Part shown: positions 21,839-46,802 of the stretch, one piece after another
Layout of the letters: the number at the start of each line of letters is the position of its first letter
Numbering within the stretch: position 1 is the first letter of the stretch
Source of the DNA: Verrucomicrobiaceae bacterium
Lineage (GTDB): Bacteria > Verrucomicrobiota > Verrucomicrobiia > Verrucomicrobiales > Verrucomicrobiaceae
NCBI GenBank assembly: GCA_016795365.1
Contig: JAEUHN010000029.1
Span: forward strand, 124,001 to 188,000
DNA length: 64,000 bases
Direction of reading: 5' to 3'
Notes under the pieces: model-generated
What the model was told of the DNA's origin: nothing
Databases searched by the model: none
Seen by the model: only the letters and a program-made list of their open reading frames with translations
Program-made: the position numbers and the translations under genes

Positions 21839-21841
21839 TCC

Positions 21842-23014: not shown

Positions 23015-23056
23015 AACCCACGCCATTCACTCACCTGCCCCACCCTTGAGAACACC

Positions 23057-23752
23057 ATGTCATCCGTAGCCATCATTCTCGCCCGCGGCGGCAGCAAGCG
23101 CATCCCTCGGAAGAACGTGCGCCCCTTTCTGGGTGAGCCGGTCATTCATTATCCGATCAATGCAGCACTGGAGTCTGGCTGCTTTGATGAGGTCATGGTC
23201 TCGACCGACGATGATGAGATCGCCGAGATCTCCATCGCTGCCGGAGCGGTGGCCCCCTTCAGACGCTCCGCTGCCAACTCCGATGATCACTCCACGACCA
23301 CGAGCGCCCTGCTCGAAGTGATCCAGCAATATCGCGATGCGGGTCGTGAGTGGGACGTCGTTTGCGGCATGTATGCGGCCACACCGCTTGTCACCGCCAG
23401 ACATCTTCGCGATGGCCGGGACCTTCTGCTCGCCAGCGATCAGCATGACACCGTGATGCCGGTGATCCGATTTGGCTATCCCATCCAGCGCGCCTTTGGC
23501 ATCAATGACGGCCTGCTCAGGCTGATGCATCCTGAGAATCAGTTCACCCGGTCGCAAGACCTCACCCCTGCCTACCATGATGCCGGCCAGTGGTATTGGA
23601 TGCGCCGCGCTTCATTTGAGAAGCATCAGCGTGTGTTCATGGATCAATGCGTGCCGCTCGTGCTTTCGGAAATGGAAGTGCAGGACATCGACAACGAAGA
23701 TGACTGGAAGCTGGCCGAAGTGAAACACACACTCAACCGCCGCAAGCCGTGA
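23057..23752 (+). CDS. pseF: Pseudaminic acid cytidylyltransferase
   Basis: 231 residues. It activates pseudaminic acid with CTP to CMP-pseudaminic acid, the last step of the pathway. The nucleotide-binding N-terminus AIILARGGSKRIPRKN is diagnostic of the NeuA/PseF family, followed by STDDDEIAEI. Pathway context (pseB, C, G/H, I) favours PseF over NeuA. The stop overlaps the start of the following gene (GTGA). Confidence 0.94.
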   Translation: MSSVAIILARGGSKRIPRKNVRPFLGEPVIHYPINAALESGCFDEVMVSTDDDEIAEISIAAGAVAPFRRSAANSDDHSTTTSALLEVIQQYRDAGREWDVVCGMYAATPLVTARHLRDGRDLLLASDQHDTVMPVIRFGYPIQRAFGINDGLLRLMHPENQFTRSQDLTPAYHDAGQWYWMRRASFEKHQRVFMDQCVPLVLSEMEVQDIDNEDDWKLAEVKHTLNRRKP

Positions 23753-25236
23753 AGCCAAGGCTCTTGATTCGTGCGGATGCCTCAACCCGGATGGGCACAG
23801 GTCACATCATGCGCTGCATCGCTCTGGCACAAGCTTGGCAGGACGTGGGCGGCGAGGTTTCGCTTCTCGCACGAGAGCTTCCAGAAACGCTGGGCGACCG
23901 CGTGCAACGCGAGGGTATCGCCTTGATCCAGCCGCATCGCGACATCGCGGATGTGGAAGACACCTGCACTGCTGCAGCTGAGGCCGATTGGGTCGTGGTT
24001 GATGGTTACCAGTTCGACACCGCCTTTGCCGATCGCGTGTGCTCTGCAGCAAAGCACATGCTTTTCGTTGATGACCTCGGCCAGCTCGACCATTACGCCG
24101 CCTCGCTGGTGCTGAACCAGAACATCACGGCTGACTCATCAACGTATGCGAACCACGCGGCACATACGCGGCTTCTCCTCGGTGGTCAGCATGCTCTCCT
24201 TCGTCGTGAATTTCGCGGCACGGCGCCGCGCCGTGATGCCATCACACCAATTGAGCGTGTGCTGGTAACTCTCGGTGGCAGTGACCCTGACAACGTCACC
24301 ACCAAGGTCATTGATGCCTTGCTCTTGCTGCCCCAATTGCATGCCAAGGTCATCGTCGGTGCTGCCAATCCACGCCGCGAGGAACTGGCTCGACATTGTC
24401 TTCAAGCAGGCGGACGCATCGAACTGCTGCCTCCCGTGGAGAACATGGTTCCCCTCATGGATGAAGCCCAGATCGCGATCAGTGCGGGCGGCACGAGCGT
24501 GCTCGAACTGGCGTCTCGCGGCCTGCCCACGCTGCTGATCGCCATTGCCGACAACCAGCTCGCCATCTGCGAGACCATGCGGGATCGAGGTTTGATGGCG
24601 TATGCTGGATGGCACACCGATGTGAGCCCCGCAGCTCTCGCCCTCGCTCTTGATGAGTTCTCAAGCAAGACAGCCATCCCTCAGCGCGCTCAATTCATCG
24701 AGCGCGGTCTCGAACTAGTCGATGGACGAGGCGCGATTCGGGTCGCACGCGAGATGCTTGCGCTCACGGCACAGTGTTTGGTGCGAGTGCGCACGGCCAC
24801 AATGAATGATGCACGTCGCGTGCTCGACTGGGCCAATGATCCCGTGACGCGCTCGGTGTCGTTCAATCAAACACAGATCACTTGGTCAAATCATGAGCCC
24901 TGGTTTACTCGTCGGCTGGCTGATGCTTCGTGCCTGCTGCTGATCGGCGAAGATCTGCAAGGCAACGCCGTCGGCATGGTTCGCTTCGATGTGGCGAACG
25001 GCATCGCCACCATCTCGATCAACATCGCCCCTGAGCATCGGCAGCGTGGTCTCGGCACCGCCTTGATCCTGGTCGCGTGTCGAGGTGCCCTGGCCAGCGG
25101 CGCAGCCAACCAGATCCGCGCCTTGATCAAGCCGGAGAACACCGCTTCGCAGCGTGCTTTTCAGCGTGCGGGATTCACGCCCTCTGACGACGAGGATGTG
25201 GCTGGACAACGCGCGTTGTGCATGGTTTTGAACTGA
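23749..25236 (+). CDS. pseG: Bifunctional PseG nucleotidase / PseH N-acetyltransferase fusion
   Basis: 495 residues starting at a GTG that overlaps the pseF stop. Residues 1 to about 340 are PseG, a GT-B-like hydrolase that removes UDP from UDP-2,4-diacetamido-trideoxy-altropyranose: IRADASTRMGTGHIMRC, VVDGYQFD, LVTLGGSDPDN and ISAGGTSVLELASRGLPTL. Residues about 345-495 are a GNAT domain equivalent to PseH, which acetylates the C4 amino group: VRVRTATMNDARRVLDWAND, INIAPEHRQRGLG and ENTASQRAFQRAGF. In the pathway PseH acts just before PseG, so the fusion joins consecutive steps. No separate pseH was seen. Confidence 0.92.
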   Translation: MKPRLLIRADASTRMGTGHIMRCIALAQAWQDVGGEVSLLARELPETLGDRVQREGIALIQPHRDIADVEDTCTAAAEADWVVVDGYQFDTAFADRVCSAAKHMLFVDDLGQLDHYAASLVLNQNITADSSTYANHAAHTRLLLGGQHALLRREFRGTAPRRDAITPIERVLVTLGGSDPDNVTTKVIDALLLLPQLHAKVIVGAANPRREELARHCLQAGGRIELLPPVENMVPLMDEAQIAISAGGTSVLELASRGLPTLLIAIADNQLAICETMRDRGLMAYAGWHTDVSPAALALALDEFSSKTAIPQRAQFIERGLELVDGRGAIRVAREMLALTAQCLVRVRTATMNDARRVLDWANDPVTRSVSFNQTQITWSNHEPWFTRRLADASCLLLIGEDLQGNAVGMVRFDVANGIATISINIAPEHRQRGLGTALILVACRGALASGAANQIRALIKPENTASQRAFQRAGFTPSDDEDVAGQRALCMVLN

Positions 25237-25239
25237 CCC

Positions 25240-26307
25240 ATGGCGGACAAATGCATCCAAATCGGCTCACGGCAGATCGGCGCCGGCCACCCGTGTTACA
25301 TCATCGCGGAAATGTCCGCGAATCACGGCCAGAGCTTTGATCAAGCCGTCGCCATCGTCCGTGCTGCGAAGGAAGCCGGAGCCGATGCGGTGAAGTTGCA
25401 AACTTACACGCCGGACACGCTGACGATTGACTGCGCGAACGAGTATTTTCAAATCGGCAAAGGCACCATCTGGGAAGGCAAGAATCTTTACCAGTTGTAT
25501 GGCGAAGCCTACACGCCCTGGGACTGGCAGGCGCGGCTGAAGGCCGAAGCGGAAGCGCTGGGGATGGATTGCTTTTCCTCGCCATTCGATCCCACTTCCG
25601 TGGACTTCCTCGAATCGATCCATGTGGACTGCTACAAGATCGCTTCGTTCGAACTCGTGGACCTGCCTTTGATCCGCAAGGTGGCTGCCACGGGCAAGCC
25701 CATCATCATGTCCACCGGCATGGCCACGCTCGCCGAGATCGAAGAAGCCGTGACTACCGCGCGCGCTGCCGGCTGCACCCAGCTCGCCTTGCTCAAGTGC
25801 AACAGCGGCTATCCCGCACCGCCGGATGACATGAATCTGCGCACCATCCCGCACCTCAGCGAGGCCTTCGGCGTGCCCGCAGGACTATCCGATCACACCC
25901 TGGAAGTCGCCGTGCCTGTCGCCGCCGTCACGCTGGGCGCATGCATCATTGAGAAGCACTTCACCCTCAGCCGCGCCGAGCCCGGCCCCGACAGTGCCTT
26001 CTCGCTCGAACCCCAGGAGTTCCGCGCGATGGTCGATGCGGTGCGCGTCACTGAGCGCGCGCTAGGCACGGTGCGTTACGCCACCACCGCGAAGGAGGCC
26101 GCGAGCCGCATCTTCAGGAAGTCGATCTTCGTCGTGAAAGACATCGCCGCTGGTGAAGCCTTCACCGCCGACAATGTGCGCTGCATCCGGCCTGGCCACG
26201 GGCTTCATCCGCGTCACTTGGACGAGGTTCTCGCAACACGTGCTGCCTGCGATTTGAAACGAGGCACACCTTTGAGCCAGGCTCATTTGCAACGGGCTGC
26301 AGGCTAA
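25240..26307 (+). CDS. pseI: Pseudaminic acid synthase
   Basis: 355 residues. It condenses 2,4-diacetamido-2,4,6-trideoxy-L-altrose with phosphoenolpyruvate to give pseudaminic acid. NeuB-type TIM barrel: YIIAEMSANHGQSFDQAVAI, GADAVKLQTYTPDTLT, CYKIASFELVDLPLI, PIIMSTGMATLAEIEEAV and IIEKHFTLSR. A C-terminal SAF antifreeze-like domain spans about residues 285-350 (RKSIFVVKDIAAGEAFTADN, RPGHGLHP). It starts 3 bases after the pseG/H stop and completes the five-gene pathway. Confidence 0.95.
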   Translation: MADKCIQIGSRQIGAGHPCYIIAEMSANHGQSFDQAVAIVRAAKEAGADAVKLQTYTPDTLTIDCANEYFQIGKGTIWEGKNLYQLYGEAYTPWDWQARLKAEAEALGMDCFSSPFDPTSVDFLESIHVDCYKIASFELVDLPLIRKVAATGKPIIMSTGMATLAEIEEAVTTARAAGCTQLALLKCNSGYPAPPDDMNLRTIPHLSEAFGVPAGLSDHTLEVAVPVAAVTLGACIIEKHFTLSRAEPGPDSAFSLEPQEFRAMVDAVRVTERALGTVRYATTAKEAASRIFRKSIFVVKDIAAGEAFTADNVRCIRPGHGLHPRHLDEVLATRAACDLKRGTPLSQAHLQRAAG

Positions 26308-26364
26308 CTCCAGCCTTTCAAATCGAGTTTGCCATCCGCTCGCAGCGTGTGCTACAAGCCGCGC

Positions 26365-27177
26365 GTGTCAGCTCCCACTTCTCCCCGCGAAACAAAGCCT
26401 CTGAAGGTCGTCATCTTCTGTGGCGGATTGGGCACGCGGCTGCGTGAAGAGACCGAATACCGGCCCAAACCCATGGTGCCCGTGGGCAACCGTCCGATCC
26501 TCTGGCACATCATGAAGCACTACGCCGTGCACGGGCACAAGGAGTTCATTCTTTGCCTGGGCTACAAGGGCTCCGTGATCAAGGACTACTTCCACAACTA
26601 CCACTGGAACACCAGTGATGTCACGATCAAGCTGGGCCAGCATCCGCAGACGATCTATCATAACTCGCATGATGAGGAAGACTGGTCAGTGACCATGGTG
26701 GACACAGGTGAAAAGACGATGACTGGAGGTCGACTCCGGCGCGTGCTGCCCTTCATCGAAGACGAAGAGTTTTTGGTCACTTACGGCGACGGTGTTTCCG
26801 ATGTGAATGTGAACGAACTGGTGGCCTTCCATCGTGAGCAAGGCGCGGGCGCAACACTCACCGCCGTGCGTCCAGGTGGGCGGTTCGGCGAATTGCATCT
26901 GAAGGACGGCATGGTGTCCAACTTCATGGAAAAGCCCAGGGATGGCCATGCGTCCATCAACGGCGGATTCATGGTGATGAACAAGTCGGCCATCAGTCCC
27001 CTGCTGGATGGTGACTCATGTGTGCTGGAGCAGGCTCCACTGCGCCACCTTTCGCAGTCCGGTCAACTGGCTGCCTACTCGCACCAGGGCTTCTGGCAGT
27101 GCATGGACAACATCCGCGAGATGGAGATTCTCAATGAACTCTGGGCCAGCGGTCAGGCACCGTGGAAGACATGGTGA
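26365..27177 (+). CDS. rfbF: Glucose-1-phosphate cytidylyltransferase
   Basis: 270 residues from a GTG at 26365, preferred because it gives the family length; a longer ATG start at 26329 is possible. It makes CDP-glucose from glucose 1-phosphate and CTP. Conserved N-terminus: VVIFCGGLGTRLREETEYRP followed by KPMVPVGNRPILWHIMK. Later motifs are VTYGDGVSDVNV and GFMVMN. It begins the CDP-sugar branch; its stop overlaps the rfbG start. Confidence 0.93.
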   Translation: MSAPTSPRETKPLKVVIFCGGLGTRLREETEYRPKPMVPVGNRPILWHIMKHYAVHGHKEFILCLGYKGSVIKDYFHNYHWNTSDVTIKLGQHPQTIYHNSHDEEDWSVTMVDTGEKTMTGGRLRRVLPFIEDEEFLVTYGDGVSDVNVNELVAFHREQGAGATLTAVRPGGRFGELHLKDGMVSNFMEKPRDGHASINGGFMVMNKSAISPLLDGDSCVLEQAPLRHLSQSGQLAAYSHQGFWQCMDNIREMEILNELWASGQAPWKTW

Positions 27178-28283
27178 GCACCTTCGGCAATGTCTATGCG
27201 GGCAGGCGTGTGCTGCTCACCGGCCACACCGGATTCAAAGGCGGCTGGCTGGCGCTCTGGCTCCGGCAGCTGGGCGCTGAAGTCACCGGCCTCGCGCTAC
27301 CTGCGGCTGATGGCTTGAGCTTGTTCAGCGTGGTCGGCAACGACTCGTTCCAGCGGTCTTGGTTGGTCGATTTGCGTGATGCGGATGCTGTCCGTGCCGT
27401 GGTTCACGATGCCCAGCCCGAGATCGTTTTTCACCTCGCCGCCCAGCCCTTGGTTGGACTGTCCTATCGAGAACCCATCGCCACTCTCAACACCAATGCG
27501 ATGGGCACGGCCTATCTCCTGGAAGCCCTGCGCTCCGAGCGCTGCTCGGCACCTGCGGTGATCGTCACGAGTGACAAGTGCTACCGCAACGACAACTCCG
27601 GCCGCGCTTTTGAAGAAAGCGATCCCCTCGGCGGACATGATGTGTATTCGATGAGCAAGGCCGCCACCGAGCTGGTGGTCGCAGCGTGGCACGCCTCCTT
27701 TTTCGCAGCAGACAAAGGCTTGGGTGCTCTGGCCACGGGCCGCGCGGGCAATGTCATCGGAGGCGGCGACTACGGCGAAGATCGCATCGTGCCCGATGCC
27801 GTCCGCGCCTTCATTGCCCACAAGCCTCTTGTGCTTCGTCGCCCGCAAGCCACACGGCCCTGGCAGCATGTGCTCGAATCCTTGAGCGGTTACCTGGCCC
27901 TTGGGCAGCGCCTGCTCACGGCACCGGACAAGGCAACACTGCTGAACTACAACTTTGGCCCCGACTTCGCGTCCGAGCGAACCGTGCAGGAACTCGTCGA
28001 TGCCTGGCTCACAGTTTGGCCCGGCGGCATCAGGCCCGAGATCACACCTCAGCCGACCTACGGTGAAGCAGCACGGCTCAGCCTCAATCCGCAGAAGGCG
28101 ATCGATGAGCTGGGCTGGCTGCCTGTCTGGGACTTCGCGCGCACCGTCGCCGAGACAGCTTCGTGGTATCGCCATCGGCATGAAACCGAGGCCACCGACG
28201 CCGCGATGCGCGACTTCACCTGGCAGCAGATCGCCAGCTACACCTCCGATGCTCGTGCCGCAGGTGCAGCCTGGACAACTTAA
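27171..28283 (+). CDS. rfbG: CDP-glucose 4,6-dehydratase
   Basis: 370 residues from the ATG at 27171, which overlaps the rfbF stop by 7 bases. It converts CDP-glucose to CDP-4-keto-6-deoxyglucose. Extended SDR with VLLTGHTGFKGGWLALWL (NAD binding), HLAAQPLVGLSYREP, VTSDKCYRND and the Tyr/Lys pair in HDVYSMSKAATELV. ATGRAGNVIGGGDY and RPWQHVLE are typical of RfbG. No rfbH dehydrase follows, so the pathway does not go to 3,6-dideoxyhexoses. Confidence 0.93.
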   Translation: MVSTFGNVYAGRRVLLTGHTGFKGGWLALWLRQLGAEVTGLALPAADGLSLFSVVGNDSFQRSWLVDLRDADAVRAVVHDAQPEIVFHLAAQPLVGLSYREPIATLNTNAMGTAYLLEALRSERCSAPAVIVTSDKCYRNDNSGRAFEESDPLGGHDVYSMSKAATELVVAAWHASFFAADKGLGALATGRAGNVIGGGDYGEDRIVPDAVRAFIAHKPLVLRRPQATRPWQHVLESLSGYLALGQRLLTAPDKATLLNYNFGPDFASERTVQELVDAWLTVWPGGIRPEITPQPTYGEAARLSLNPQKAIDELGWLPVWDFARTVAETASWYRHRHETEATDAAMRDFTWQQIASYTSDARAAGAAWTT

Positions 28284-28293
28284 TCCTCATCGC

Positions 28294-29508
28294 ATGACTT
28301 CGCACTGCCGTTCCTGTGGTTCCAGCCGCCTCCACCCTGTCATCGACCTGGGTTTGCAGCCCCTGGCTAACAACCTCCTGCTGCCCAACGACCTGGCCAA
28401 GCCGGAGCCCAAGTTCCCGCTCGAAGTCGCCGTGTGCGCCGATTGCTGGCTGATGCAGATCACGCACATCGTGCCGCCAGTCGATCTCTTCAGCGACTAC
28501 GTTTACTTCTCGTCCAATTCAGACGCGATGCTGCGCCATGCAAGGGAGGCAGCGCTACGCTACATCGCTGACAAGAAGCTGGGCAAGGACAGCTTTGTCG
28601 TCGAAGTCGCGAGCAATGATGGCTACTTGCTGAAGAACTTCGTCCAAGCCGGTGTGCCCTGCCTGGGCATCGAGCCCGCCAAAAACATTGCGGTCGAAGC
28701 GCGCAAAGCGGGCGTGGATACGCTCGCCGAGTTCTTCGGTAAGGACACAGGCAGCGCTGTGGCTGCCGACCGTGGCCAGGCGGATGTCATTTTGGGCAAC
28801 AACGTCTTCGCCCATGCGCCCGACACCAATGACTTCGTGGCAGGTCTCGCCGCGCTGCTGAAGCCGGATGGCTGGATATCGCTCGAGTTCCCTTACGGCG
28901 TCGAGATGATCGAGAAGGTGGAGTTTGACACCATCTACCACGAGCACGTCTTCTACTTCACGCTCGCGCCACTGGAGCCGTTGTTCGCGCGGCACGGGCT
29001 GGAGGTGTTTCATGTCGAACACTTCGACAAGTTGCACGGCGGCACCCTGCGTCTCTTCGCCTGCCATCGCGGAGCCGAACCTGTGCGAGAGAGCGTGCGT
29101 GAACTTCGTGCCCGCGAGTCCCAGCTGGGTGTGAGCACACTGGGTTACTACCAGAACTTTGCCCGTCGGGCTGAGAAGGTGAAGGCCGACTTGATCGCCT
29201 TCCTCACCACGCACGAGAACGTGGCCGCTTACGGTGCTTCGGCGAAGGGCAGCACCTTGCTCAATTTCATCGGCGAGCCTGCGAGCCGTCTCCAGTTCAT
29301 CGCGGACCGCAGCCCGCACAAGCATCACAAGCTCAGCCCTGGACTGCACATCCCAATCGTCCCTGCCGAAGCGCTCTCGGAACGACGACCCGATTATGCT
29401 TTGCTGCTCGTGTGGAATTTCGCCGACGAAGTGATTCGCCAGCAGAGCGCCTACTGCCAGCAAGGCGGCAAGTTTGTCGTGCCATTGCCCGAGTTACGCA
29501 TCGTTTGA
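28294..29508 (+). CDS. NDP-sugar C-methyltransferase (TylC3/NovU-type)
   Basis: 404 residues from the ATG at 28294. SAM-dependent methyltransferase of the family that adds a methyl branch to carbon 3 (or 5) of 4-keto-6-deoxy sugars. Order: an N-terminal zinc-binding region (CRSCGSSRLHPVIDLGLQPLANN-type start, then CADCW), a class I SAM fold with EVASNDGYLLKNF and LGIEP, the catalytic block FDTIYHEHVFYFTLAPL and HGGTLRLF, and a C-terminal Rossmann-like domain (AYGASAKGSTLLNFIG). It lies 10 bases after rfbG, which argues that its substrate is CDP-4-keto-6-deoxyglucose. Confidence 0.88.
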   Translation: MTSHCRSCGSSRLHPVIDLGLQPLANNLLLPNDLAKPEPKFPLEVAVCADCWLMQITHIVPPVDLFSDYVYFSSNSDAMLRHAREAALRYIADKKLGKDSFVVEVASNDGYLLKNFVQAGVPCLGIEPAKNIAVEARKAGVDTLAEFFGKDTGSAVAADRGQADVILGNNVFAHAPDTNDFVAGLAALLKPDGWISLEFPYGVEMIEKVEFDTIYHEHVFYFTLAPLEPLFARHGLEVFHVEHFDKLHGGTLRLFACHRGAEPVRESVRELRARESQLGVSTLGYYQNFARRAEKVKADLIAFLTTHENVAAYGASAKGSTLLNFIGEPASRLQFIADRSPHKHHKLSPGLHIPIVPAEALSERRPDYALLLVWNFADEVIRQQSAYCQQGGKFVVPLPELRIV

Positions 29509-29511
29509 CCC

Positions 29512-30054
29512 ATGAAATTTGAGCCCACCCAGTTCGACGGTGTCTGGCTCATCACCCTGGAGCCTCGTGGTGATGAGCGGGGCTACCTCATGCGCACCTA
29601 CTGCGAGCCCACCTTTCGCGCCCATGGGCTCACGACGCACTGGCCGCAGTGCAACGAAACTCTGACCACGCGACGCGGCAGCATCCGTGGCATGCATTGG
29701 CAGAAGGCTCCTCACGGTGAGGCCAAGCTGGTGCGCTGCTCGCAGGGTCGCATCTGGGATGTGGTGGTCGATGTGCGCCAGGGGGCTTCCACCTTCGGCC
29801 AATGGCAGGCTTTTGAACTCGATGCCAGCCGCCCGCAGCAGCTTCATATTCCGCCCGGCTTCGCACATGGCTTTCAGACGTTGAGCGACCACGCGGTGCT
29901 GCACTATCAGATGGGTGAACTCTACCGCCCCGATGGAGCCGCCGGCTGCCGATGGGATGATCCAGCGCTGGCGATTCCATGGCCCCTGCCGGTCGCCGAT
30001 CTCTCGGCTCGGGATGCGGGATTGCCATTGCTAGCAGAGGCTTTCGACTCCTGA
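29512..30054 (+). CDS. NDP-4-keto-6-deoxyhexose 3,5-epimerase family protein (RmlC-like)
   Basis: 180 residues, the usual RmlC cupin length. Conserved blocks are RGYLMRTYCEPTF, NETLTTRRGSIRGMHWQ (active-site His), KLVRCSQGRIWDVVVDVR, PPGFAHGFQTLSD, a Tyr in ELYRPDGAAG and CRWDDPAL. It epimerises C3 and/or C5 of a 4-keto-6-deoxy sugar. Because it follows rfbF, rfbG and the C-methyltransferase, a CDP-linked, C3-branched substrate is inferred; whether it acts on C3, C5 or both cannot be read. Confidence 0.9.
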   Translation: MKFEPTQFDGVWLITLEPRGDERGYLMRTYCEPTFRAHGLTTHWPQCNETLTTRRGSIRGMHWQKAPHGEAKLVRCSQGRIWDVVVDVRQGASTFGQWQAFELDASRPQQLHIPPGFAHGFQTLSDHAVLHYQMGELYRPDGAAGCRWDDPALAIPWPLPVADLSARDAGLPLLAEAFDS

Positions 30055-30062
30055 CCACGCCC

Positions 30063-30869
30063 ATGTCCACTACCTTCACCATCCTCGGATCGCGCGGCTA
30101 TGTTGGCTCTCACCTTACGGAGTATCTGCGCCAGCAAAACGACACGATCGTGCAGGTGGACAGCACTCCGCTTCCCTCGGGCAACCTGGGGCATGTGATC
30201 TTTTGCATTGGCGTCACCACAGACTTCGCCAGCCGTCTGCATGACACCATGCGCGCCCATGTGAGCAAGGCGCTGGAAGTGCTAGAGACCTGCGAGTTTG
30301 ATTCCTTCACCTACCTTTCGAGCACTCGTGTCTATGAGCGCGGCACCAGCGGTGAGGAGACGGCACCGCTCAGCGCTGATCCGAGCAACCTCGCTGACTA
30401 CTACAAGATCTCCAAGATCGCGGGCGAGGCGGTGTGCCTGGCTCACCCGCGAGCCACGGTCCGTGTGGCCCGCCTTTCCAATGTGCTCGGCTTTGAGCAG
30501 CCACCTTTGACCTTTGTTCCCTCATTGATTCGCGATGCCCTGCAACACGGACGCATCGTGCTCAACACAGCGCTGGATTCCGCCAAGGACTACATCTTGA
30601 TGGACGATGTGGTGCGCCTCCTGCCTCTCATCGCTCAGCATGGCAAGGAACGGCTCTACAACCTGTCGTCTGGAGTCCAGACCACGCACCAGGAGATCGT
30701 GGACAGCATCAGCGCGACGCTCGGATCGAGTTACGAAGCACGTCCAGGCGGTGCTCGATCCACCTTCCCCATGACGGCAGCCACACGCTTGAGAACTGAG
30801 TTCGGATTTGAGCCGACACCGGTCATCGAACGATTGCCATCCCTGTGCCGCCAGTATGCTGCGCTATGA
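30063..30869 (+). CDS. NAD-dependent epimerase/dehydratase-family protein, probable 4-ketosugar reductase
   Basis: 268 residues from the ATG at 30063. Extended SDR with TILGSRGYVGSHLTEYL (a GxxGYVG nucleotide motif) and the Tyr/Lys pair in NLADYYKISKIAGEAV, with upstream SSTRVY supplying the Ser/Thr. Smaller than dehydratases, it matches NDP-sugar reductases and epimerases. Its position after dehydratase, methyltransferase and 3,5-epimerase suggests it reduces the C4 keto group to finish the CDP-sugar. The stop overlaps the next start (ATGA). Confidence 0.78.
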   Translation: MSTTFTILGSRGYVGSHLTEYLRQQNDTIVQVDSTPLPSGNLGHVIFCIGVTTDFASRLHDTMRAHVSKALEVLETCEFDSFTYLSSTRVYERGTSGEETAPLSADPSNLADYYKISKIAGEAVCLAHPRATVRVARLSNVLGFEQPPLTFVPSLIRDALQHGRIVLNTALDSAKDYILMDDVVRLLPLIAQHGKERLYNLSSGVQTTHQEIVDSISATLGSSYEARPGGARSTFPMTAATRLRTEFGFEPTPVIERLPSLCRQYAAL

Positions 30870-31549
30870 ATCTGTCCCTGCCCAGATCCGAGTTGGCGAC
30901 TTACACCGCACGTCAGCTCAACCACTTCTTCCCTGATGGTCACGACCTGACCGGTAGCGATCTGATGCCCGGTCTCGATGTCGCGCTGGACCGGCTGCAC
31001 TTCTGCTTTCGCCACGCCATCAGCCCCCGCTACAACGGCCCCGATGGCACGCACCTCAACCACCTGTATGCGGACCACTACCTCATGTATCTGTGGTTCC
31101 TGGCAAACTCGCTGTCACGCCAGGGCGCAGATCGCCGCCTGCTGAGCAAGCTCTACTACCTGAACAAGGCCCTGCACGCCTTCGACTGCATGTATGACAC
31201 CGGTTTGCCCGACATCTTCCTCATCTTCCACGGCAGCGGCACGATGCTGGGTAAGGCGACGTATGGGAACTTCTTCGTGGCCCTGCAAGGCTGCACGATT
31301 GGTGCTCATCATGGCAAGTATCCAACGCTCGGCCAAGGCGTGGCCCTGGCGGCGCAGAGTTCCATCATCGGCCCCTGCCAGATCGGCCACGGCGCATCCG
31401 TGAGCTGTCAGACGGGCTTGTTCCAAACCGATGTGCCCGACCATCACGTTGCCTACCGGGACAAGGAGGGTCGGCTGATCATCAAGCCCAGCGCCCGCAG
31501 CTATGCGCAGACCTTTTTCAACGTGGACTGCACACCACCACAGACATGA
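30866..31549 (+). CDS. Left-handed beta-helix (hexapeptide) acyltransferase, serine-acetyltransferase-like
   Basis: 227 residues from the ATG at 30866 that overlaps the previous stop. An N-terminal helical region (about 1-115) precedes hexapeptide-repeat turns ([40 protein letters not shown]). The pattern resembles CysE/WbbJ-type acetyltransferases found in O-antigen loci. It probably adds an acetyl group from acetyl-CoA to a sugar or amino sugar of this glycan. Catalytic specificity cannot be assigned. It overlaps the next gene by 4 bases. Confidence 0.7.
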
Positions 31550-32091
31550 CTCCTCTCCCCACTGGACTCGAACTCGGCGAAGGCGTAACCATTGATCCCC
31601 TCGCCGTCATCTCCCCCTCGGTGCGAGGCACCTGGATTCGCATCGGTGCCAACACCACCGTGCATCCCTTCGCCACCATCAAGGCCGTCGGCGGCACGGG
31701 TGACATCGTGATTGGCCAGCACTGCCAGATCAATCCCCAGTGCGTGCTCTACAGCGGCGCCGGGATCAAGCTGGGCGACTACGTCCTGCTGGCACCCGGC
31801 GTGATGCTGGTGCCAGCCAACCACGCCTTCGCCCGTGTGGACATTCCGATCGCCAAGCAGGGCTTTATGCCTTCCAAAGGAGGCATCGTGATCGGAGACG
31901 ATGTCTGGATCGGTGCCGGGAGCATCGTCGTGGATGGTGTGACCATCGGCCAGGGTGCCATCATCGGCGCAGGCAGTGTGGTGACCAAGTCAGTGCCGGC
32001 ATGGGAAATCTGGGCGGGCACACCAGCCAGGCGCATCTCCACTCGCAAGCCTCCCGAGAACGACGGGACTGCAGCGGAAAACACGCATTGA
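31546..32091 (+). CDS. Hexapeptide-repeat acetyltransferase (WbbJ/maltose acetyltransferase-like)
   Basis: 181 residues. Nearly the whole protein is left-handed beta-helix: [54 protein letters not shown] and [20 protein letters not shown]. The active-site His is likely in NHAFAR. The ending [10 protein letters not shown] is typical of sugar O-acetyltransferases. The ATG overlaps the preceding acyltransferase's stop, so the pair is translationally coupled. Confidence 0.85.
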
Positions 32092-32175
32092 CAACCTCCT
32101 TCGCGCCATGCCAATTCAGCCCGCGCGATTGCCGAAGGCGATCGCCTTCCACTCCCCCATGCCGCGCGTTTTCCC

Positions 32176-33672
32176 ATGAGCCGATTCCAGGTCATCATCC
32201 CCGTTCTGAATGCCGAAAAAACGCTGCGCCACACGCTGCAAACGCTGGCGGACCTGCCGAATGACAACGTCAGCTTTCTGATTTCCAACAACAGCAGCAC
32301 CGACTCGACGCCGGACATCCTCGAAGACTTCCGCGCCCGCGATTCACGCTTCCAGATCATCAAGACGGAGCAGACCCTGCCTCTGAAGGACAGCCTCGAA
32401 TTCGCCATGTCCCAATCGACCGGCGACTACCTGATGGTCATCGGCGGCGATGATGGTCTCTACACCGGCTGCATCGAAGTCGCCGAGGAAGCCCTGCGCC
32501 AGCATCCTCAGGCCAAGGCCGTCGCCCATCGTCGCAGTTTCCTTCTCTGGCCCGATGTGCCCGATCACTGCGGCACTCCCGGATTTCCTCCCGGTGGACT
32601 GCGCATCTCGGCGGCCAACACGTTCGACCTGCGCAATGCCCGCGAGGATCTCCGTCAGCAAGCCCTGAGCATCATTCATTGCCCCACCCCCGCACCTTAT
32701 CAGGGCTGGGTCAGCAAGGAGATCGTCAATCGCATCCGTTCGCGCGTGGGCCGAGTGTTCGCCCACTACGTGACCGACTTCTGGTTTGCCTCCGCCACCG
32801 GCGCCGAACTGGACAATGCACCTTACGTCTTCTCTGGCCTGCCACTCTCCATCGGAGCCTACTCGGCCCACAGTTCCGCCTTGTCCTTTTTCTCGAACAC
32901 CAAGAGCGATGCTGCCGAGAAAAAACTCAGCCTCGAACTAAGCACCGAGAAAGAGAACCTCGTTTTCACCAGCAAGTCCGCCCGCGGTTACCGCTACGAG
33001 ATTCTCAAGCTCGTGCTCCAGCACTGGCCCAATGCGCCATTCACCGAACGTGAGATGGACCTCAACTACGTGTGCGGCTTCTGGGAGGAGTGGAAGCACC
33101 GCACCAGCATGCCACCAGAGGCAGCACACCAGTTCGCAGGCAGCACCGAGCAGTTCCGCCAGTTCATTGACCGCACCGCCGCTAATGCAGGTCTTACCGA
33201 CCTGATCGCCGATCTCGATCGCAACTACGTTTTCCGCGGTGACAACAGCGCCCTCTGGGCCAAATGGGGCACCTCGTTCCAGCAGGATGCCGACTGGGCG
33301 CACGACGTTTGCATCGACACCCGCCGACTCGGCTGCCGCAACGTTCACGACGTCTCCAAAGCGATGAGCGTCATCATCGAAGCCGTTCAACAAGCCGGCG
33401 AATCCTTCGCCAAGATCATCGCCAACAAACGCCTCGCAGGTGGTCCCAAGGACAGCCCGGCACCCAGCTGGGAAAGCGCAGGCTTTGCCGCCATCAGCAA
33501 GGCCTGTGCAGACAGCCTTCAGCCTTTGCAGAAGGACAACCGCAACCTCGGACGCCAGGTCTCCAAGTTCAACGATTCCTGGCGCGCGCCCAAAGATGCA
33601 CCCTGGGCGCTCAAGACCGGCCTGAGTCTTGCTCGCTTCCTGGGCCGGGCCACTGGCACCCTGCCCAAGTAG
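32176..33672 (+). CDS. Glycosyltransferase family 2 with long C-terminal extension
   Basis: 498 residues. The GT-A domain occupies about residues 1-240: FQVIIPVLNAEKTLRHTL, SNNSSTDSTPDILEDF and the metal-binding DxD-like MVIGGDDGLYTG. A further 250 residues, mostly helical, have no recognised family and end in a basic segment (LSLARFLGRATGTLPK). It probably transfers a sugar to the growing surface glycan. It follows an 84-base gap after the acetyltransferase. The next gene begins 14 bases after its stop. Confidence 0.85.
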   Translation: MSRFQVIIPVLNAEKTLRHTLQTLADLPNDNVSFLISNNSSTDSTPDILEDFRARDSRFQIIKTEQTLPLKDSLEFAMSQSTGDYLMVIGGDDGLYTGCIEVAEEALRQHPQAKAVAHRRSFLLWPDVPDHCGTPGFPPGGLRISAANTFDLRNAREDLRQQALSIIHCPTPAPYQGWVSKEIVNRIRSRVGRVFAHYVTDFWFASATGAELDNAPYVFSGLPLSIGAYSAHSSALSFFSNTKSDAAEKKLSLELSTEKENLVFTSKSARGYRYEILKLVLQHWPNAPFTEREMDLNYVCGFWEEWKHRTSMPPEAAHQFAGSTEQFRQFIDRTAANAGLTDLIADLDRNYVFRGDNSALWAKWGTSFQQDADWAHDVCIDTRRLGCRNVHDVSKAMSVIIEAVQQAGESFAKIIANKRLAGGPKDSPAPSWESAGFAAISKACADSLQPLQKDNRNLGRQVSKFNDSWRAPKDAPWALKTGLSLARFLGRATGTLPK

Positions 33673-33686
33673 CCTTCTGCGATTCC

Positions 33687-35054
33687 GTGAGTTCCCCCGC
33701 CATCATTCTCAATGAGAGCCAGCCGATTCAATCGGCCGAGGAAGTGCGGTTCCTGCTCGCTTCGGTGTTCCGTGGGGAAGCCGTTCCAGTTTTCCTGCTC
33801 GATGCCGCCCTTGCCCTCTGGAAGGAGAGTCCCGAATTGAAACACGCCGAACTGCTTCGCCAAGTGCGCAAGACGGCTCTGGCCAAGCCTCGCCGCCCGT
33901 CCAAGCCACCGCGCCCCACCTTCTGGCAGCGACTCCTGGGAAAGCCAGCAACGGACACCTCGATCGAATCTCCCGATGCCGAGCGCGCCCGTCTCGACCA
34001 GCGGTTCACCGAACACTTTGCCGAGGCCAAACGAGCCTCCACTGCCTACGCGGCGAAAGAAAAGCCCGTGCCCTCGGCGGTCTTCTGGCCCAACCCTTCC
34101 CAGACGGGCGAGCGTGCCTCCTCGTTGTTCGATGTGATCCCCGTCGTGCATCGCAAGCCTCTCCTGACCAAGACCACTCCGATCGGCTCCGCGGGCAGTT
34201 GCTTCGCCATGGAGATCGCCCATTGGCTGCAGGACAACGGCTTCAATTACCTCGTCACCGAGCCTCCCGGGCCTTGCGATCCGCACACGCGCCCCATGTC
34301 CAACGCCCGCTGGGGCATTGTGTTTAACACCCCGAGCCTGCGCCAGCTGGTCGAGCGCGCGTTCGGTGTCATCGAGACACCGCGCCTGCTGTGGAGCGAT
34401 GTGCGGAATGGCGTGGAGCGTTTCTACGATCCGTTTCGCGAGGACGTGTTGTTTGGTTCCAAAGCCGAATACGAGGAAACTTACGACAGCCATGTGGCCG
34501 CCGTTCGTCGTGCCCTGAGCGAGGTGAAGGTCTTCGCGATGACGCTCGGCATGAACGAGGTGTGGTTCCTCAAGAATGGCGGTCATGCCCTTTCGCGCGC
34601 GCCATGGCGTGTGGCCAGCAGTTGCGTCGAGCCGCGCGTGCTCACCGTCGAAGAGAACGTCCAGCACCTTTCGGCGATGTGGTCCACGTGGAAGAAGTTC
34701 AACCCCGACGTGCGGCTGATCATCACCGTGTCTCCGGTGCCGCTTCATGCCACCTTCCGTGGCGACACTCACCATGTGGTGGTCGCCAACGCCCACTCCA
34801 AGGCCGTCCTGCGCGCCGCCGCCGAACAATTCGTCAGCACTCACGACGATGTGGACTACTTCCCTGCTTACGAAGTGGTGATGCATTGCACCCGAGACGC
34901 CTGGGACACCGATCAGCGCCACGTCAGCCGCAACACCGTGAAAAATGTCATGCGCACCTTCTGCGAGATGTTCGTGGACCCGCAAGATTTGCCGCCGTCC
35001 GAACAGGAACTGCGCAGCACCGTCGCCCATGACCTACTAAATCCTGGCTCATGA
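33687..35054 (+). CDS. GSCFA-domain protein (SGNH-like hydrolase or acyltransferase relative)
   Basis: 455 residues from a GTG at 33687, the first plausible start after the preceding stop. Residues 1 to about 120 are charged with a Pro/Lys-rich basic patch (KPRRPSKPPRPTFWQRL). The family-naming motif appears as IGSAGSCFAMEIA, followed by SNARWGIVFNTPSLRQLVE, MTLGMNEVW and a late block DDVDYFPAYEVVM. GSCFA proteins share the SGNH hydrolase fold; the activity is not established. In a glycan cluster, adding or removing an acyl group is a reasonable inference. The stop overlaps the following start (ATGA). Confidence 0.8.
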   Translation: MSSPAIILNESQPIQSAEEVRFLLASVFRGEAVPVFLLDAALALWKESPELKHAELLRQVRKTALAKPRRPSKPPRPTFWQRLLGKPATDTSIESPDAERARLDQRFTEHFAEAKRASTAYAAKEKPVPSAVFWPNPSQTGERASSLFDVIPVVHRKPLLTKTTPIGSAGSCFAMEIAHWLQDNGFNYLVTEPPGPCDPHTRPMSNARWGIVFNTPSLRQLVERAFGVIETPRLLWSDVRNGVERFYDPFREDVLFGSKAEYEETYDSHVAAVRRALSEVKVFAMTLGMNEVWFLKNGGHALSRAPWRVASSCVEPRVLTVEENVQHLSAMWSTWKKFNPDVRLIITVSPVPLHATFRGDTHHVVVANAHSKAVLRAAAEQFVSTHDDVDYFPAYEVVMHCTRDAWDTDQRHVSRNTVKNVMRTFCEMFVDPQDLPPSEQELRSTVAHDLLNPGS

Positions 35055-36055
35055 CTGACTCCCCGCCTGTATCGACGGTGGCGACCGCCGATCGCCATAC
35101 CTCGACCGTCTGCTTCTGCTTCCGCAAATCCCTCGCGGACCTCCGCGCCGATTACACCACCTACGGCTCCCTGGCCCGCATGCAGGACGCCACGCGCGTG
35201 GGCATGCAGTGCGGCGGTTGCCGTGCACTCCTGCACCATCACTTCGGCGAAACGCCCGTCGAGATCAGCGACCTTTCCCACGACGATCAGCGTGGTGCCA
35301 CGGTCTGCGTGAAGCCCGGCAACCGGGTGATGAAGTGCTTCATCGCATCCAGTTCACTGCTCGAATCCCGCGCCTTCTCCAGCAATGCCGTGCCGCTCCA
35401 GCTGGGCGAATGCGACTCCTCCATGACGGCGGAGTTCACACTCTACAACCACCTTGGCAAGCCGATCATGACCCGCCGCCAGCCGCTGGCCACGGGCGAG
35501 ACCTTCAGCTTCGATACCGCGATGGAACGCCTGCCCAGGCCATTCTACGGCATGATCGCCTACCGCCTGGAGCGCAAGAACTACGGTGCTTCTCGGCTCA
35601 ACGTGGCCTGGCACTCGGGGGATTCGATGACCTCGACGCACGAAAACTTCAGCACTGGGCGTCCTGATGTGGTGCTGCCTGTGCCTGTGGATGACGTGTT
35701 CCTGAATGGGCCCAATGACATCTACCTCGCCGTGCAGAATCCGCACAGCAAGCCGCGCGAGATCGTATTCCGTTTGTTCCAGCTCTCGGGCGGCAACATC
35801 TACGAGGACCTCGCACCCACCGTCGCCGGAGTCCCGCCCAAGGATGGAGCGCTGGAATTCCGCCGTGTGCTGCCTCCGCTCGGCACGGATTGGATTCACG
35901 CCAGCCGCGAGTTCTACACGCCCGCACTGAAGCTTCTGAAAGGCCCTCTCGCCCTGCGCATCTACACGCCCGGCGTGGACATCCATCAGGCCCCGTCCAC
36001 CTACTTCTTCTTGCATCACCGCGAGCAGAACATCTGGAGTTCCAACCACCTCTAA
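35051..36055 (+). CDS. BFD-like [2Fe-2S] domain fused to a beta-rich domain of unknown function
   Basis: 334 residues. Residues about 19-62 match the bacterioferritin-associated ferredoxin fold: Cys21-x-Cys23, 30 residues, then Cys54-x2-Cys57 in VGMQCGGCR, the spacing and flanks of Bfd-type [2Fe-2S] sites. Residues about 75-334 are beta-rich without a recognised family (AEFTLYNHLGKPI, GMIAYRL, DIYLAVQNPHSKP, NIWSSNHL). The gene overlaps GSCFA by 4 bases and is followed by a protein with similar phrases. A redox or structural cluster in a glycan locus is unusual. The function is unknown. Confidence 0.72.
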   Translation: MTDSPPVSTVATADRHTSTVCFCFRKSLADLRADYTTYGSLARMQDATRVGMQCGGCRALLHHHFGETPVEISDLSHDDQRGATVCVKPGNRVMKCFIASSSLLESRAFSSNAVPLQLGECDSSMTAEFTLYNHLGKPIMTRRQPLATGETFSFDTAMERLPRPFYGMIAYRLERKNYGASRLNVAWHSGDSMTSTHENFSTGRPDVVLPVPVDDVFLNGPNDIYLAVQNPHSKPREIVFRLFQLSGGNIYEDLAPTVAGVPPKDGALEFRRVLPPLGTDWIHASREFYTPALKLLKGPLALRIYTPGVDIHQAPSTYFFLHHREQNIWSSNHL

Positions 36056-36068
36056 CCAGCCCTGACTC

Positions 36069-36824
36069 ATGACGGACGAGACCGCTCCCAGCGCCCGGAT
36101 TCATTATGGCTGCCTGATTCCTTCGGTGGCTGACTACTTCACGCAGCTGATGATTTTCCCCGGCTCCAATGCGCGCAAGCCCTGGGGCCTGCACGGTGCC
36201 TTCACGCTCGGTGGCACGGTGTTCACCAAGGGCAATCCGGAGACCGTGATCGCCACGCGTTCCTGCACCGAGGAGGAACATCTCAAGCTTGACTTCGAGA
36301 CGCCGCTGAAAGCTCTCGGGAAAGACGCCAGCGGCTTTGGTGTGCTCGCCCTGGACTCCGCAGGCGGCATCCCTGTCGAGATTTATCTTTCTCACATTCA
36401 TCGCAAGACGGGCGTCTATTTCGCCTACCCAGCGCTGATGTTCATGGGCGACCTGCTCTACCCGCACGCGCACATCGAGCGGCTGGAAAATTCCATGTTC
36501 TGGCCTGGCTTTCCTGCGTGGGAGGACACGGAGTTCAAGCTCGTGATGATGAACCCGTTCGACCTGCCCATGGCTGCCGAGATCACGCTCTGGAACAACC
36601 GCGAGGGCAAGCACCACGTGGGTGTCCGTCGTGTGAGTCCGCGCGAGTGCTTGTGGGTGTCGATGGATGAGATCATGCCTGCGGCGTGGCAGGTGCAAAA
36701 CGATCCTGCGTGCTCGCTCGGCGTCACCGCTCAGTTCAAGCTCCTGGCCTACATGGTGATGATCAACCGGCGCACTGGAATCATCACTTCCGCCGACCAC
36801 CTGCACCCTTATCAATTGTTCTGA
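36069..36824 (+). CDS. Protein of unknown function, possible relative of the preceding gene's C-terminal domain
   Basis: 251 residues, predicted beta-rich, no signal peptide. It shares short patterns with the C-terminal part of the preceding protein: AEITLWNNREGK versus AEFTLYNHLGK, the phrase LAYMVMINRR versus IAYRLERKN, and endings GIITSADHL versus NIWSSNHL. This suggests duplication and divergence, judged by eye only. It lacks the Cys cluster. It lies 13 bases downstream of its possible relative and 11 bases before the large glycosyltransferase gene, so co-transcription is likely. Confidence 0.6.
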   Translation: MTDETAPSARIHYGCLIPSVADYFTQLMIFPGSNARKPWGLHGAFTLGGTVFTKGNPETVIATRSCTEEEHLKLDFETPLKALGKDASGFGVLALDSAGGIPVEIYLSHIHRKTGVYFAYPALMFMGDLLYPHAHIERLENSMFWPGFPAWEDTEFKLVMMNPFDLPMAAEITLWNNREGKHHVGVRRVSPRECLWVSMDEIMPAAWQVQNDPACSLGVTAQFKLLAYMVMINRRTGIITSADHLHPYQLF

Positions 36825-36835
36825 ACCCGACTCTC

Positions 36836-39800
36836 ATGGCCAAAAAGATTCTGATTTTCGCCCCCTGCACCAAGTGGATCGTCCATCACCAGCTCGACTG
36901 CGCCATCGGGGCAGCGCTGGCAAACCGGGGGTGTGAAGTCAAGGTCATGCGCTGTGATGGCTTGTTCGAGCAATGCCATGTGGCTGGTTCACCGGTGCAG
37001 GCGAATGCGTGCGACTCGTGCAAGACCATGGGAGCCGAGTGGTTTAGCCGGTTCAATCTTCCCGTGGTTCAGATCGCGGCACTCGTTACGCCCGAGGAAC
37101 GCGCAGAAATCAAAGCCTGGGTGGCTGGCATTGATTACGCGAACTACACCAAGCTCACCTTCCGCCAATGGCCGGTCGGCAGCTGGATGATCTGGAACAT
37201 GCACAGCACCTTCCGGGCGGGCCAGATCGACTTCACACGGCCCGAGGTGCAGGAGCGCGCCCGCCACTACGCCGAGCACGCCGCCTTGATCGCCCTGGCC
37301 ACTAGTCGCCAGCTTGCTGCGTTCCCCGCTGACCATGCGATCAGCTACAGCGGCAGCACCAGCTACTACCGCGTGTTCTTTGAGATGTGCCAGGAAGCGG
37401 GCATCCGCGTCCTCACCCACGAGCGTGGTTTCACCGACGGCAGCTTCGTTTTCTTCGACAACCTGACGGCCTACCAGCGTAACTTCGAAACCCAGCCCGC
37501 CTGGCTCGATCAATGGCGTCAGACTCCACTCGCTGAAGATCAATGGCAACGCGTGGCCAAGCTCTTCAATGCTCGCGAGCAAGGCACGGGCATGAACTTC
37601 CAGAGCGTGCATCAGTTCCGCAGCGACATCGCCCGCACTCGCGCCCGCCTGCGCCTGCCTGCCGATGCCAAGGTGCTCCTCGTGCTCGCCTCAGGCGACT
37701 GGGAGTTTGGCATGTTCCGATCCTACGGCGGCCTCGGCGTGATCTGGCCAACGCAGCTCGAGTGGCTCCAAGACACGGCCCGTCACTGCGCCGAGCGCGG
37801 CTGGCACCTCGTGGTGCGCCACCATCCTCTCGGCGCAGGCAAAAAGACGTATTCCCGCGCCTCCGAATTCCTCGCCTCTCTGATCGCTCATCAGGGCGAG
37901 TGGGGTTCGAAAGTCCGCGTGGTGATGCCTGCGGAGAACCTCAGCACCTACGACTTGATGAGCCTGGCCGATGCGGCGGTGAACCAGTTCACCACTGGCG
38001 GCGCCGAGGCCCTCATCCGCGGCGTGCCCGTGGTCTGCGTCGCTGCCAGCGCCTATCGCCACATGGGCATGGACTGGGTGCGGGACCGTGCGGACTACAC
38101 CGCCGCTCTGGATCGCGCGATGAGCCAGCAGCCGCCGCTGAACGTGGACGCCCTGAAGAATGCGTTCCGCTACGCGAACTTCCACTTCTACACCATGGGG
38201 TCCACGAACCTCACCTCGATGGGCATCAAGAACGCCTACGAGCCCGACTTCCGACTTGCCTCCCCCAAGGACCTCCAGCCCGGCATCGACCCCGTCATGG
38301 ACCGCGTGTGCACTCACATCCTTGAAGGTGGCCCGCTTTATCCCGCGCCCGAGCCGGTCACCTCCGATGCCGATGAGCTTCGCCTCTTGGGTGCGTATCG
38401 CGACCAGCTTGTGCTTCAACGCGAAGCAGCCCGCGCCAGCGAGCCTGCCCTCAGCCGCCCGGAAGTCACCGTCTGGCTGCTCGGCGAAGCGCTCAAGCGC
38501 GGCCAGACCGAATTCCCTCCGCCCGATGGCTGGCGCTGCCGCCACGCCGAAGTGAAGCTCGACTGGATGGTGCTCGATGCCCGTGGTGGGGCTGATGCGC
38601 TCCGCCTCACGCTGGGGAAAACCGCCGCCGACGTCAACAGCCCTTACGTCTTGGTTCACGCGCCTCACGTCACGCTCGATGAGTCCGCCATCTCCCAGGC
38701 TGTGGACTTGCTCGAGCTGCCGGAGAACAAGGACAAGACCGGCGTGCTCTTTGGTTGCTACGTCATCGAAGAAAAAGCACCTCACACGCTCGGACCGGAG
38801 TGGAACACCGCCACCTTCGCACCCGATCCGGCTCAACTGCCGCCCGCGAACATCCCCTGCCTGGCCGAGCCAATGAACGTCCTCAGTCTCGTGCTCTGGC
38901 GACGAGATCGTCTGGGCGAATGGCTGGAGCACAGTCTGCCTCGTCACGACAATGATGGCACCTGGTGCCGCGACATGCTGGCCTCGTTCCTGGATGGCAA
39001 AGACTTCGTCAACCTCGCCGAGCCAGTCGTTTTCATCCGCTCGGGACCCAGCCAGGACGAGCTGCTCGCCCAGGCCGAGAGCCTCGTCCATAAGGGCGAT
39101 CTCGACGGCGCGCTGAAGATCGCCGCCAGCTGTCAGGAACGATTTGGTTTCACTCATGGGCTCCGTGGTCGCATGGCGGCTTGGCTTGCGAGCCAGCAGC
39201 GCACGGCGCAAGCGGTGGCCCTGCTCAATGGTGAATATCACAACGGCAATCCCGACGATTCCTGCTGGCAGACCTTGAGCCAGTCGCTGCCGCAGCTCGC
39301 CCTCAAGCGCCCCGGCTACAAAGACTACGCCAGCGCGGTCGAGAGTGTGTTTGGTTACATGGTCCCAGGGCAGGAACGCTTCCTGCATGAAAAGGTTCTT
39401 TCGTTGCCCTCGGATGCCCGCATCCTCGAGATCGGAGCCTTCTTCGGTCGCTCCACCGTGGCGATGGCCTTCGCCTGCACGGGCACTCGTCGCCACCTGT
39501 TCACCATTGATACCTTCAGCGGCAACGAGGGCCTGATGGGCCGCACGTCGTGGTTCTACAACCACTGGCGCGGCAATCTCCGCCGCTGGGGTCTGGAATC
39601 GTATGTCACCTCCATGCCCGGCTTTTCCCACCCGGTGGTGCGTAGCTTGGCGGCGGACGAGATGTTCGACTTCGCCTTCATTGATGCCTCCCACGAATAC
39701 GAGGATGTGCTGCTCGATTTCGAACTCGTCTGGCCGCATGTGAAGCCCGGTGGCTGGATCGCCTTCCACGATGTGGAGCCCGGCTGGCCAGGCTGCTGGC

Positions 39801-40207
39801 GCGTGTGGGAGCAGACGGGCAAACGCCTCCTCACCGACCATGCCGCCTGCGACACGCTGGCCTGTGGTCGCAAGCCTGCCGACACGCCCTGGCGCTCCTG
39901 CGAAGAGGAATGGCCCGGCTACATTGCTTCCATCACCGATTACTACATCGCGCATCCCAAGTGGAGCCAGACCGGGCACGCGATGCGTGCCCTCGTTGAG
40001 GGTAAAGCCACCGCAGCTGACGACGCCACACTCGCGGCCCCCCCCGAAGAACTGCTCAAGCTCCTCACCCGCTCCACCCGAGAAGAGAACGATCCGTGGC
40101 TGCACGAGGTCCTCGCCCGCATGTTCGCCACTTCTGATCCCGAGGCCTCCGCCCGCCATCGCGCCGAAGCCGCCCGACTTGGAGCCTCCGCCCCGACCCG
40201 CCCATGA
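36836..40207 (+). CDS. Very large protein: N-terminal glycosyltransferase-like, C-terminal class I SAM methyltransferase
   Basis: 1123 residues from the ATG at 36836. Residues 1 to about 500 look like a GT-B or capsule-synthesis-type transferase (ILIFAPCTKWIVHHQ, a Cys-rich patch with CDGLFEQC and CDSCKT, VRHHPLGAGKKTY, LMSLADAAVNQFTTGGAEAL). About 560-770 is a second GT-A-like segment (VHAPHVTLDESAISQAVDLL). A short TPR-like part (about 780-840) leads to a methyltransferase (about 870-1040): ILEIGAFFGRSTVAMAFA, FTIDTFSGNEG, FDFAFIDASHEYEDV and KPGGWIAFHDVEPG. Several steps of glycan assembly are probably joined in one chain. The stop overlaps the next start (ATGA). Confidence 0.75.
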   Translation: MAKKILIFAPCTKWIVHHQLDCAIGAALANRGCEVKVMRCDGLFEQCHVAGSPVQANACDSCKTMGAEWFSRFNLPVVQIAALVTPEERAEIKAWVAGIDYANYTKLTFRQWPVGSWMIWNMHSTFRAGQIDFTRPEVQERARHYAEHAALIALATSRQLAAFPADHAISYSGSTSYYRVFFEMCQEAGIRVLTHERGFTDGSFVFFDNLTAYQRNFETQPAWLDQWRQTPLAEDQWQRVAKLFNAREQGTGMNFQSVHQFRSDIARTRARLRLPADAKVLLVLASGDWEFGMFRSYGGLGVIWPTQLEWLQDTARHCAERGWHLVVRHHPLGAGKKTYSRASEFLASLIAHQGEWGSKVRVVMPAENLSTYDLMSLADAAVNQFTTGGAEALIRGVPVVCVAASAYRHMGMDWVRDRADYTAALDRAMSQQPPLNVDALKNAFRYANFHFYTMGSTNLTSMGIKNAYEPDFRLASPKDLQPGIDPVMDRVCTHILEGGPLYPAPEPVTSDADELRLLGAYRDQLVLQREAARASEPALSRPEVTVWLLGEALKRGQTEFPPPDGWRCRHAEVKLDWMVLDARGGADALRLTLGKTAADVNSPYVLVHAPHVTLDESAISQAVDLLELPENKDKTGVLFGCYVIEEKAPHTLGPEWNTATFAPDPAQLPPANIPCLAEPMNVLSLVLWRRDRLGEWLEHSLPRHDNDGTWCRDMLASFLDGKDFVNLAEPVVFIRSGPSQDELLAQAESLVHKGDLDGALKIAASCQERFGFTHGLRGRMAAWLASQQRTAQAVALLNGEYHNGNPDDSCWQTLSQSLPQLALKRPGYKDYASAVESVFGYMVPGQERFLHEKVLSLPSDARILEIGAFFGRSTVAMAFACTGTRRHLFTIDTFSGNEGLMGRTSWFYNHWRGNLRRWGLESYVTSMPGFSHPVVRSLAADEMFDFAFIDASHEYEDVLLDFELVWPHVKPGGWIAFHDVEPGWPGCWRVWEQTGKRLLTDHAACDTLACGRKPADTPWRSCEEEWPGYIASITDYYIAHPKWSQTGHAMRALVEGKATAADDATLAAPPEELLKLLTRSTREENDPWLHEVLARMFATSDPEASARHRAEAARLGASAPTRP

Positions 40208-45974: not shown

Positions 45975-46034
45975 CCCGCTCCCAGGCAACCGCGATTGAC
46001 CGCCCCGAAGGATCATGGCAGAGGACGTGGCATC

Positions 46035-46802
46035 ATGTCGCTCTTCTCCTTCTTCAAATCGAAGCCCGCCCGCATCTCCCTGCTGCATGCCACGCGTGGC
46101 CGACCTGAGGAACCGCTCAAATGTCGCCAGCTTTGGTTCGACATGGCCAACAAGCCCGACCGCGTGGAGCACGTCTTCGCCATTGATGACGATGACGAGA
46201 TCGGAAAAAAGGCGCTCGCCGATTACCATCCGCATGTGGTGAAACAGCCCGGTCTCGGCTGCGTGGGTGCCTGGAATCTGGCTGCTGAAAAATCAACCGG
46301 CGACATCCTCATCCAGCTCTCCGACGACTGGCTGCCAGTGAAGGGCTGGGACGACATCGTGGAGCAGCGGCTCGGTTTGAAAAAGCCCGCCGTGCTCCAG
46401 ATCAGCGATGGTCATCGCAAGGACGACCTGCTCTGCATGGCCATCCTCAATCGCAAGCGCATGGACCAGGTGGGCCACTTCCTGCCCCCGGCCTACACAG
46501 GCATCTTCTCCGATGACGAGTTCAGCTTCCGCGCCTTCGATGACGGCGTCATCGTCGATGCCCGCGATGTGCAGTTCACCCACGATCATCCCAATTACAA
46601 TCCGGCCAAGGAGATGGATGAGACCTACATGAACCAGAACAAGGCCGAGAAGCACCGCGAGGCCAAAGCCATCTTCATCGAACGCAATCCCGAGGCCAAG
46701 AAACGCTGGTTCGTGAAGGACCACTGGGAACGCAAGTTCATCACCCGCGAAGCCTACGCCGAAATCAAAAAGGCTGAAAAGGCAGCGAAAGGGAAAGCCT
46801 AA
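46035..46802 (+). CDS. GT-A glycosyltransferase-like protein
   Basis: 255 residues from the ATG at 46035. RISLLHATRGRPEEPLKCRQ is followed by a DxD-type block (VFAIDDDDEIG) and LIQLSDDWLPVKGWDDIV, as in small family-2-like glycosyltransferases. A helical, highly charged tail (about residues 195-255) is rich in Lys and Glu. It lies 60 bases after the GT4 gene and is the last gene of the glycan cluster. It overlaps the convergent PH-domain gene by 4 bases. Confidence 0.78.
   Translation: MSLFSFFKSKPARISLLHATRGRPEEPLKCRQLWFDMANKPDRVEHVFAIDDDDEIGKKALADYHPHVVKQPGLGCVGAWNLAAEKSTGDILIQLSDDWLPVKGWDDIVEQRLGLKKPAVLQISDGHRKDDLLCMAILNRKRMDQVGHFLPPAYTGIFSDDEFSFRAFDDGVIVDARDVQFTHDHPNYNPAKEMDETYMNQNKAEKHREAKAIFIERNPEAKKRWFVKDHWERKFITREAYAEIKKAEKAAKGKA

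Follow-up and report, generated by a model that had tools for sequence, protein, structure and literature searches.

What role might a domain resembling an iron-sulfur carrier play within a cluster of glycan genes? This question is raised by a gene in a 64,000-nucleotide stretch of DNA from a Verrucomicrobiaceae bacterium, the whole of which is called the window here. The first-pass annotation had reported an open reading frame with C-x-C, a spacer of 30 residues and then C-x2-C in the context QCGGC, and this is present as described. The reading frame begins with ATG and encodes 334 amino acids. The gene, its parts and its immediate neighbors are:

33705-35054, + strand: GSCFA-family protein of the SGNH superfamily (PF08885, E 3.2e-48; exact start uncertain)
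35051-36055, + strand: Fer2_BFD-like domain joined to a part of about 255 amino acids of no known family (open reading frame, Fer2_BFD match, dN/dS)
35105-35230, + strand: the Fer2_BFD-like domain, residues 19-60, with C21, C23, C54 and C57 (PF04324, isolated domain E 1.4e-5; weak phmmer match to 6e6s and 4e6k)
35288-36052, + strand: the C-terminal part, residues ~80-334, of no known family and under strong purifying selection (no family match; dN 0.014, dS 0.37)
36069-36824, + strand: 251-amino-acid protein of no known family (sister genome 98%)
36836-40207, + strand: large protein with a Capsule_synth-like N-terminal part (weak) and a Methyltransf_24 domain (Pfam)

The GSCFA gene and the gene for the 334-amino-acid protein share 4 bases (ATGA), and a gap of 13 bases separates the latter from the gene for the 251-amino-acid protein. 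GSCFA is an SGNH family without any member of known function (PMC9487903). The 251-amino-acid protein was found in this genus only, and its AlphaFold model (pLDDT 33) is unusable for a fold search. Judged by its domains, the large protein is probably a glycosyltransferase/methyltransferase, and its first 488 residues have a distant homologue in a nonulosonate cluster of Azospirillum.

The reality of the gene was assessed by comparison with a sister genome along L003, corresponding by offset to window positions 27051-39767. The protein encoded there is 96% identical and is the sole relative found. Third codon positions carry 66 of the 80 nucleotide differences, and for the whole gene dN = 0.019 and dS = 0.34, giving dN/dS ~0.055. 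Thus the reading frame is a real, conserved gene under purifying selection. The N-terminal 79 residues have dN = 0.034, a value based on few changes, and the C-terminal part has dN = 0.014 and dS = 0.37. Gene order is the same in the sister genome, with the GSCFA, GT2 and hexapeptide neighbors colinear without gaps.

Beyond the sister genome no relative of the protein was found among 57 near relatives, 387 genomes of the phylum and 190 of the order, nor among GTDB contigs, plasmids and viral contigs; the weak matches, inspected in part, look like noise. A survey of the fusion and its neighbors, as proposed earlier, gave a conserved gene order in the sister genome but no relative outside the genus, so that only two near-identical sequences, both from that genus, could be compared. 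The combination of a Fer2_BFD-like domain with this C-terminal part is unusual, and is found in one genus only. Neither was a BFD gene seen beside other GSCFA genes, searching by Cys pattern and phmmer, in any of 30 loci from the phylum (1.5 kb flanks), nine plasmid loci (6 kb flanks) or one Azospirillum cluster.

The assignment to the Bfd family was examined by profile comparison. Fer2_BFD is the sole Pfam match in the full protein, covering residues 19-60 with 22.1 bits (E 1.9e-4). Residues 1-80 taken alone gave 25.8 bits (E 1.4e-5), and a search of the whole genome with the profile gave 25.9 bits, or 26.3 with the neighbors in frame; these values lie around the curated cut-off of 26 bits. 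In the whole-genome search the protein is the best Fer2_BFD match and the only one over the cut-off. When the N-terminal domain was shuffled with the four Cys residues fixed, no shuffle out of nine matched Fer2_BFD, and one matched an unrelated RING model with E 2e-4. The Bfd structures 6e6s and 4e6k align weakly by phmmer over ~50 residues (E 0.02-0.05). The family spacing of C-x-C, ~31 residues and C-x2-C is present as C21-x-C23 and C54-x2-C57, but the same four-Cys expression occurs in an antisense reading frame near 15145. The spacing is thus not rare, and it is the family context that carries the evidence. This context, T-x2-G-x2-CG-x-C, is shared with Bfd. By its sequence the N-terminal part closely resembles the small iron-sulfur carrier Bfd, and C21, C23, C54 and C57 are likely to be [2Fe-2S] ligands. 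All four are kept in the sister genome, as the first-pass annotation would have predicted, but two sequences that are 96% identical make this a weak test of conservation.

The remaining ~255 residues had been described as belonging to no known family, and we found no significant match to them in Pfam, NCBIfam, PHROGs or PADLOC. Nor was anything significant found among PDB sequences, where GbpA at E 0.2 was non-significant. The AlphaFold model of the whole protein (pLDDT 40) is too poor for a fold search; it hints at strands and no more, and the beta-rich character noted earlier is no more than plausible. The C-terminal part and the 251-amino-acid neighbor look alike by eye, with AEFTLYN in one and AEITLWN in the other and tails ending SSNHL and SADHL. 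This likeness is without statistical support, and homology between the two was rejected, with nothing significant by BLASTP, hhalign or shuffled local alignment.

The surrounding genes confirm the glycan setting. The cluster occupies one strand (+) from about 20.8 kb, and no sigma-70-type promoter or intrinsic terminator scored above shuffles between 20.5 and 40.3 kb. Upstream of the GSCFA gene it comprises:

20801-26307, + strand: complete pseudaminic acid (Pse) pathway (NCBIfam equivalogs, all over cut-off)
20801-21838, + strand: PseB (TIGR03589)
21842-23014, + strand: PseC (TIGR03588)
23057-23752, + strand: PseF (TIGR03584)
23749-25236, + strand: PseG (TIGR03590) fused to a GNAT domain, PseH-like (GNAT match)
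25240-26307, + strand: PseI (TIGR03586)
26329-30869, + strand: CDP-glucose branch (TIGR02623 and TIGR02622 over cut-off; PF08421/PF08484, PF00908, PF01370)
30845-33672, + strand: two hexapeptide acetyltransferase-like proteins and a GT2 glycosyltransferase (Pfam)

The Pse pathway is regarded as complete because PseB, PseC, PseF, the PseG-GNAT fusion and PseI are all represented by equivalogs over cut-off. The genes of the CDP-glucose branch encode glucose-1-phosphate cytidylyltransferase, CDP-glucose 4,6-dehydratase, a C-methyltransferase, a dTDP-sugar-3,5-epimerase-like isomerase and an SDR epimerase/reductase.

Does the cluster contain an enzyme that a Bfd-type domain could serve? Among the enzymes of the cluster we recognized SDRs, a PLP aminotransferase and transferases, but no ferredoxin-dependent enzyme or ferredoxin reductase. 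There is consequently no visible client for the oxygen-sensitive sugar modification that had been suggested. Within the genome, whose assembly is 97% complete, the best match to an RfbH-type E1 scored 138 bits against a cut-off of 423 bits, and there was no match to bacterioferritin (TIGR00754). The genome thus argues against two well-known uses of a Bfd-like carrier. Bfd proper is a small free-standing ferredoxin serving bacterioferritin, whereas here the domain is part of a 334-amino-acid fusion, with ~255 residues of another kind attached, encoded inside a glycan operon. The second use is related to the CDP-3,6-dideoxyhexose pathway, which begins with CDP-glucose 4,6-dehydratase; its E1 is PMP-dependent and its E3 is a flavin-containing reductase, and neither is of Bfd type. 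Both E1 and E3 carry [2Fe-2S] in the service of a sugar-nucleotide pathway (PMC8987622), so it was too strong to say, as had been done earlier, that one does not expect iron-sulfur proteins in polysaccharide loci.

The reading that we prefer, tentatively, is that the protein is a [2Fe-2S] accessory, a redox- or iron-sensitive module of a late glycan step, with the GSCFA protein and/or the glycosyltransferase-methyltransferase as partners. It would be a cytoplasmic accessory of a surface-glycan operon, a location suggested by the lack of a hydrophobic leader. The Bfd-type domain would bind [2Fe-2S] through its four Cys residues, as the family match suggests, and the C-terminal domain may dock on one or both of these neighbors, which are proposed from gene overlap and co-orientation only. 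The cluster could then be a stabilizing cofactor or a switch that responds to redox or iron, tying late glycan modification or transfer to the redox or iron state of the cell. The Fer2_BFD match with its shuffle control, the retained Cys residues, the colinearity, the 4-base overlap, the 13-base gap and the Pse pathway are all consistent with this; a domain score no better than around the cut-off counts against it. The switch is drawn by analogy with free Bfd, whose cluster is reportedly labile to ROS and, according to one proposal, behaves like a fuse (PMC12363616).

We have weighed this against a dedicated electron carrier, in which an unrecognized oxidoreductase that modifies sugars would receive its electrons from the Bfd-type domain, much as E1 receives them from E3. 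We consider this rather unlikely. In its favor, the cluster includes a branch with CDP-glucose 4,6-dehydratase, and branches of this kind make use of [2Fe-2S] electron transfer elsewhere (PMC8987622); bacterioferritin, too, is supplied with electrons by free Bfd (PMC12363616). Fer2_BFD domains also occur in several genomes of the bacterial family, within long reading frames (~680-1070 amino acids) of reductase size that are probably reductases; these differ in having a TGAGTVCGSC/CGGC signature, and none matched the C-terminal part studied here. Against the carrier, the genome lacks an RfbH-type E1 over cut-off and the cluster lacks a recognized ferredoxin-dependent enzyme or ferredoxin reductase. 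The switch or cofactor is favored over the carrier because no sugar-reducing client is recognizable; this argument rests on missing recognized clients, and unrecognized proteins of the cluster could be redox enzymes.

The four Cys residues might instead form a structural metal site, holding Zn or a permanent stabilizing cluster while the C-terminal domain does the work of binding sugar or protein. The Fer2_BFD score lies only around the cut-off, and the higher N-terminal dN, on its few changes, suggests that this part is the more tolerant of change. Yet C-x-C and C-x2-C together with T-x2-G-x2-CG-x-C point to the [2Fe-2S] family and not to a typical zinc ribbon, and we regard such a site as about as unlikely as the carrier. 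Still less probable, in our estimation, is that the likeness to Fer2_BFD is fortuitous or decayed and the protein is free of metal. The full-length score is below the cut-off, and the RING match indicates that such scores can arise in Cys-rich sequence, but the isolated domain reaches E 1.4e-5, the shuffles failed to match Fer2_BFD, the protein is the best match in its genome and its four Cys residues are conserved.

The preferred accessory role has a more specific form, in which a Bfd-type module in a new family makes Pse-glycan assembly or acyl modification redox- or iron-dependent; this we think improbable. We know of no redox or iron link in any GSCFA operon. The protein represents a new architecture of the known Fer2_BFD domain, as defined by sequence. 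Should it bind a cluster, it would place a well-understood [2Fe-2S] fold in a new setting, and would offer a handle on the C-terminal part and the 251-amino-acid neighbor, both without known function, and on GSCFA.

Some further observations concern the glycans themselves. Flagellin is a common Pse acceptor. There is no match to Flagellin_N in the genome, which speaks against that acceptor here, and with a complete pathway Pse presumably decorates some other surface structure. The product of the CDP-glucose branch is likely to be a CDP-linked C-methyl-branched 6-deoxy sugar, given its C-methyltransferase and the lack of an over-cut-off match to an RfbH-type E1. Further along the window, a 268-amino-acid protein at 45996-46802 has no Pfam match and matches a PHROGs glycosyltransferase with E 6e-15.
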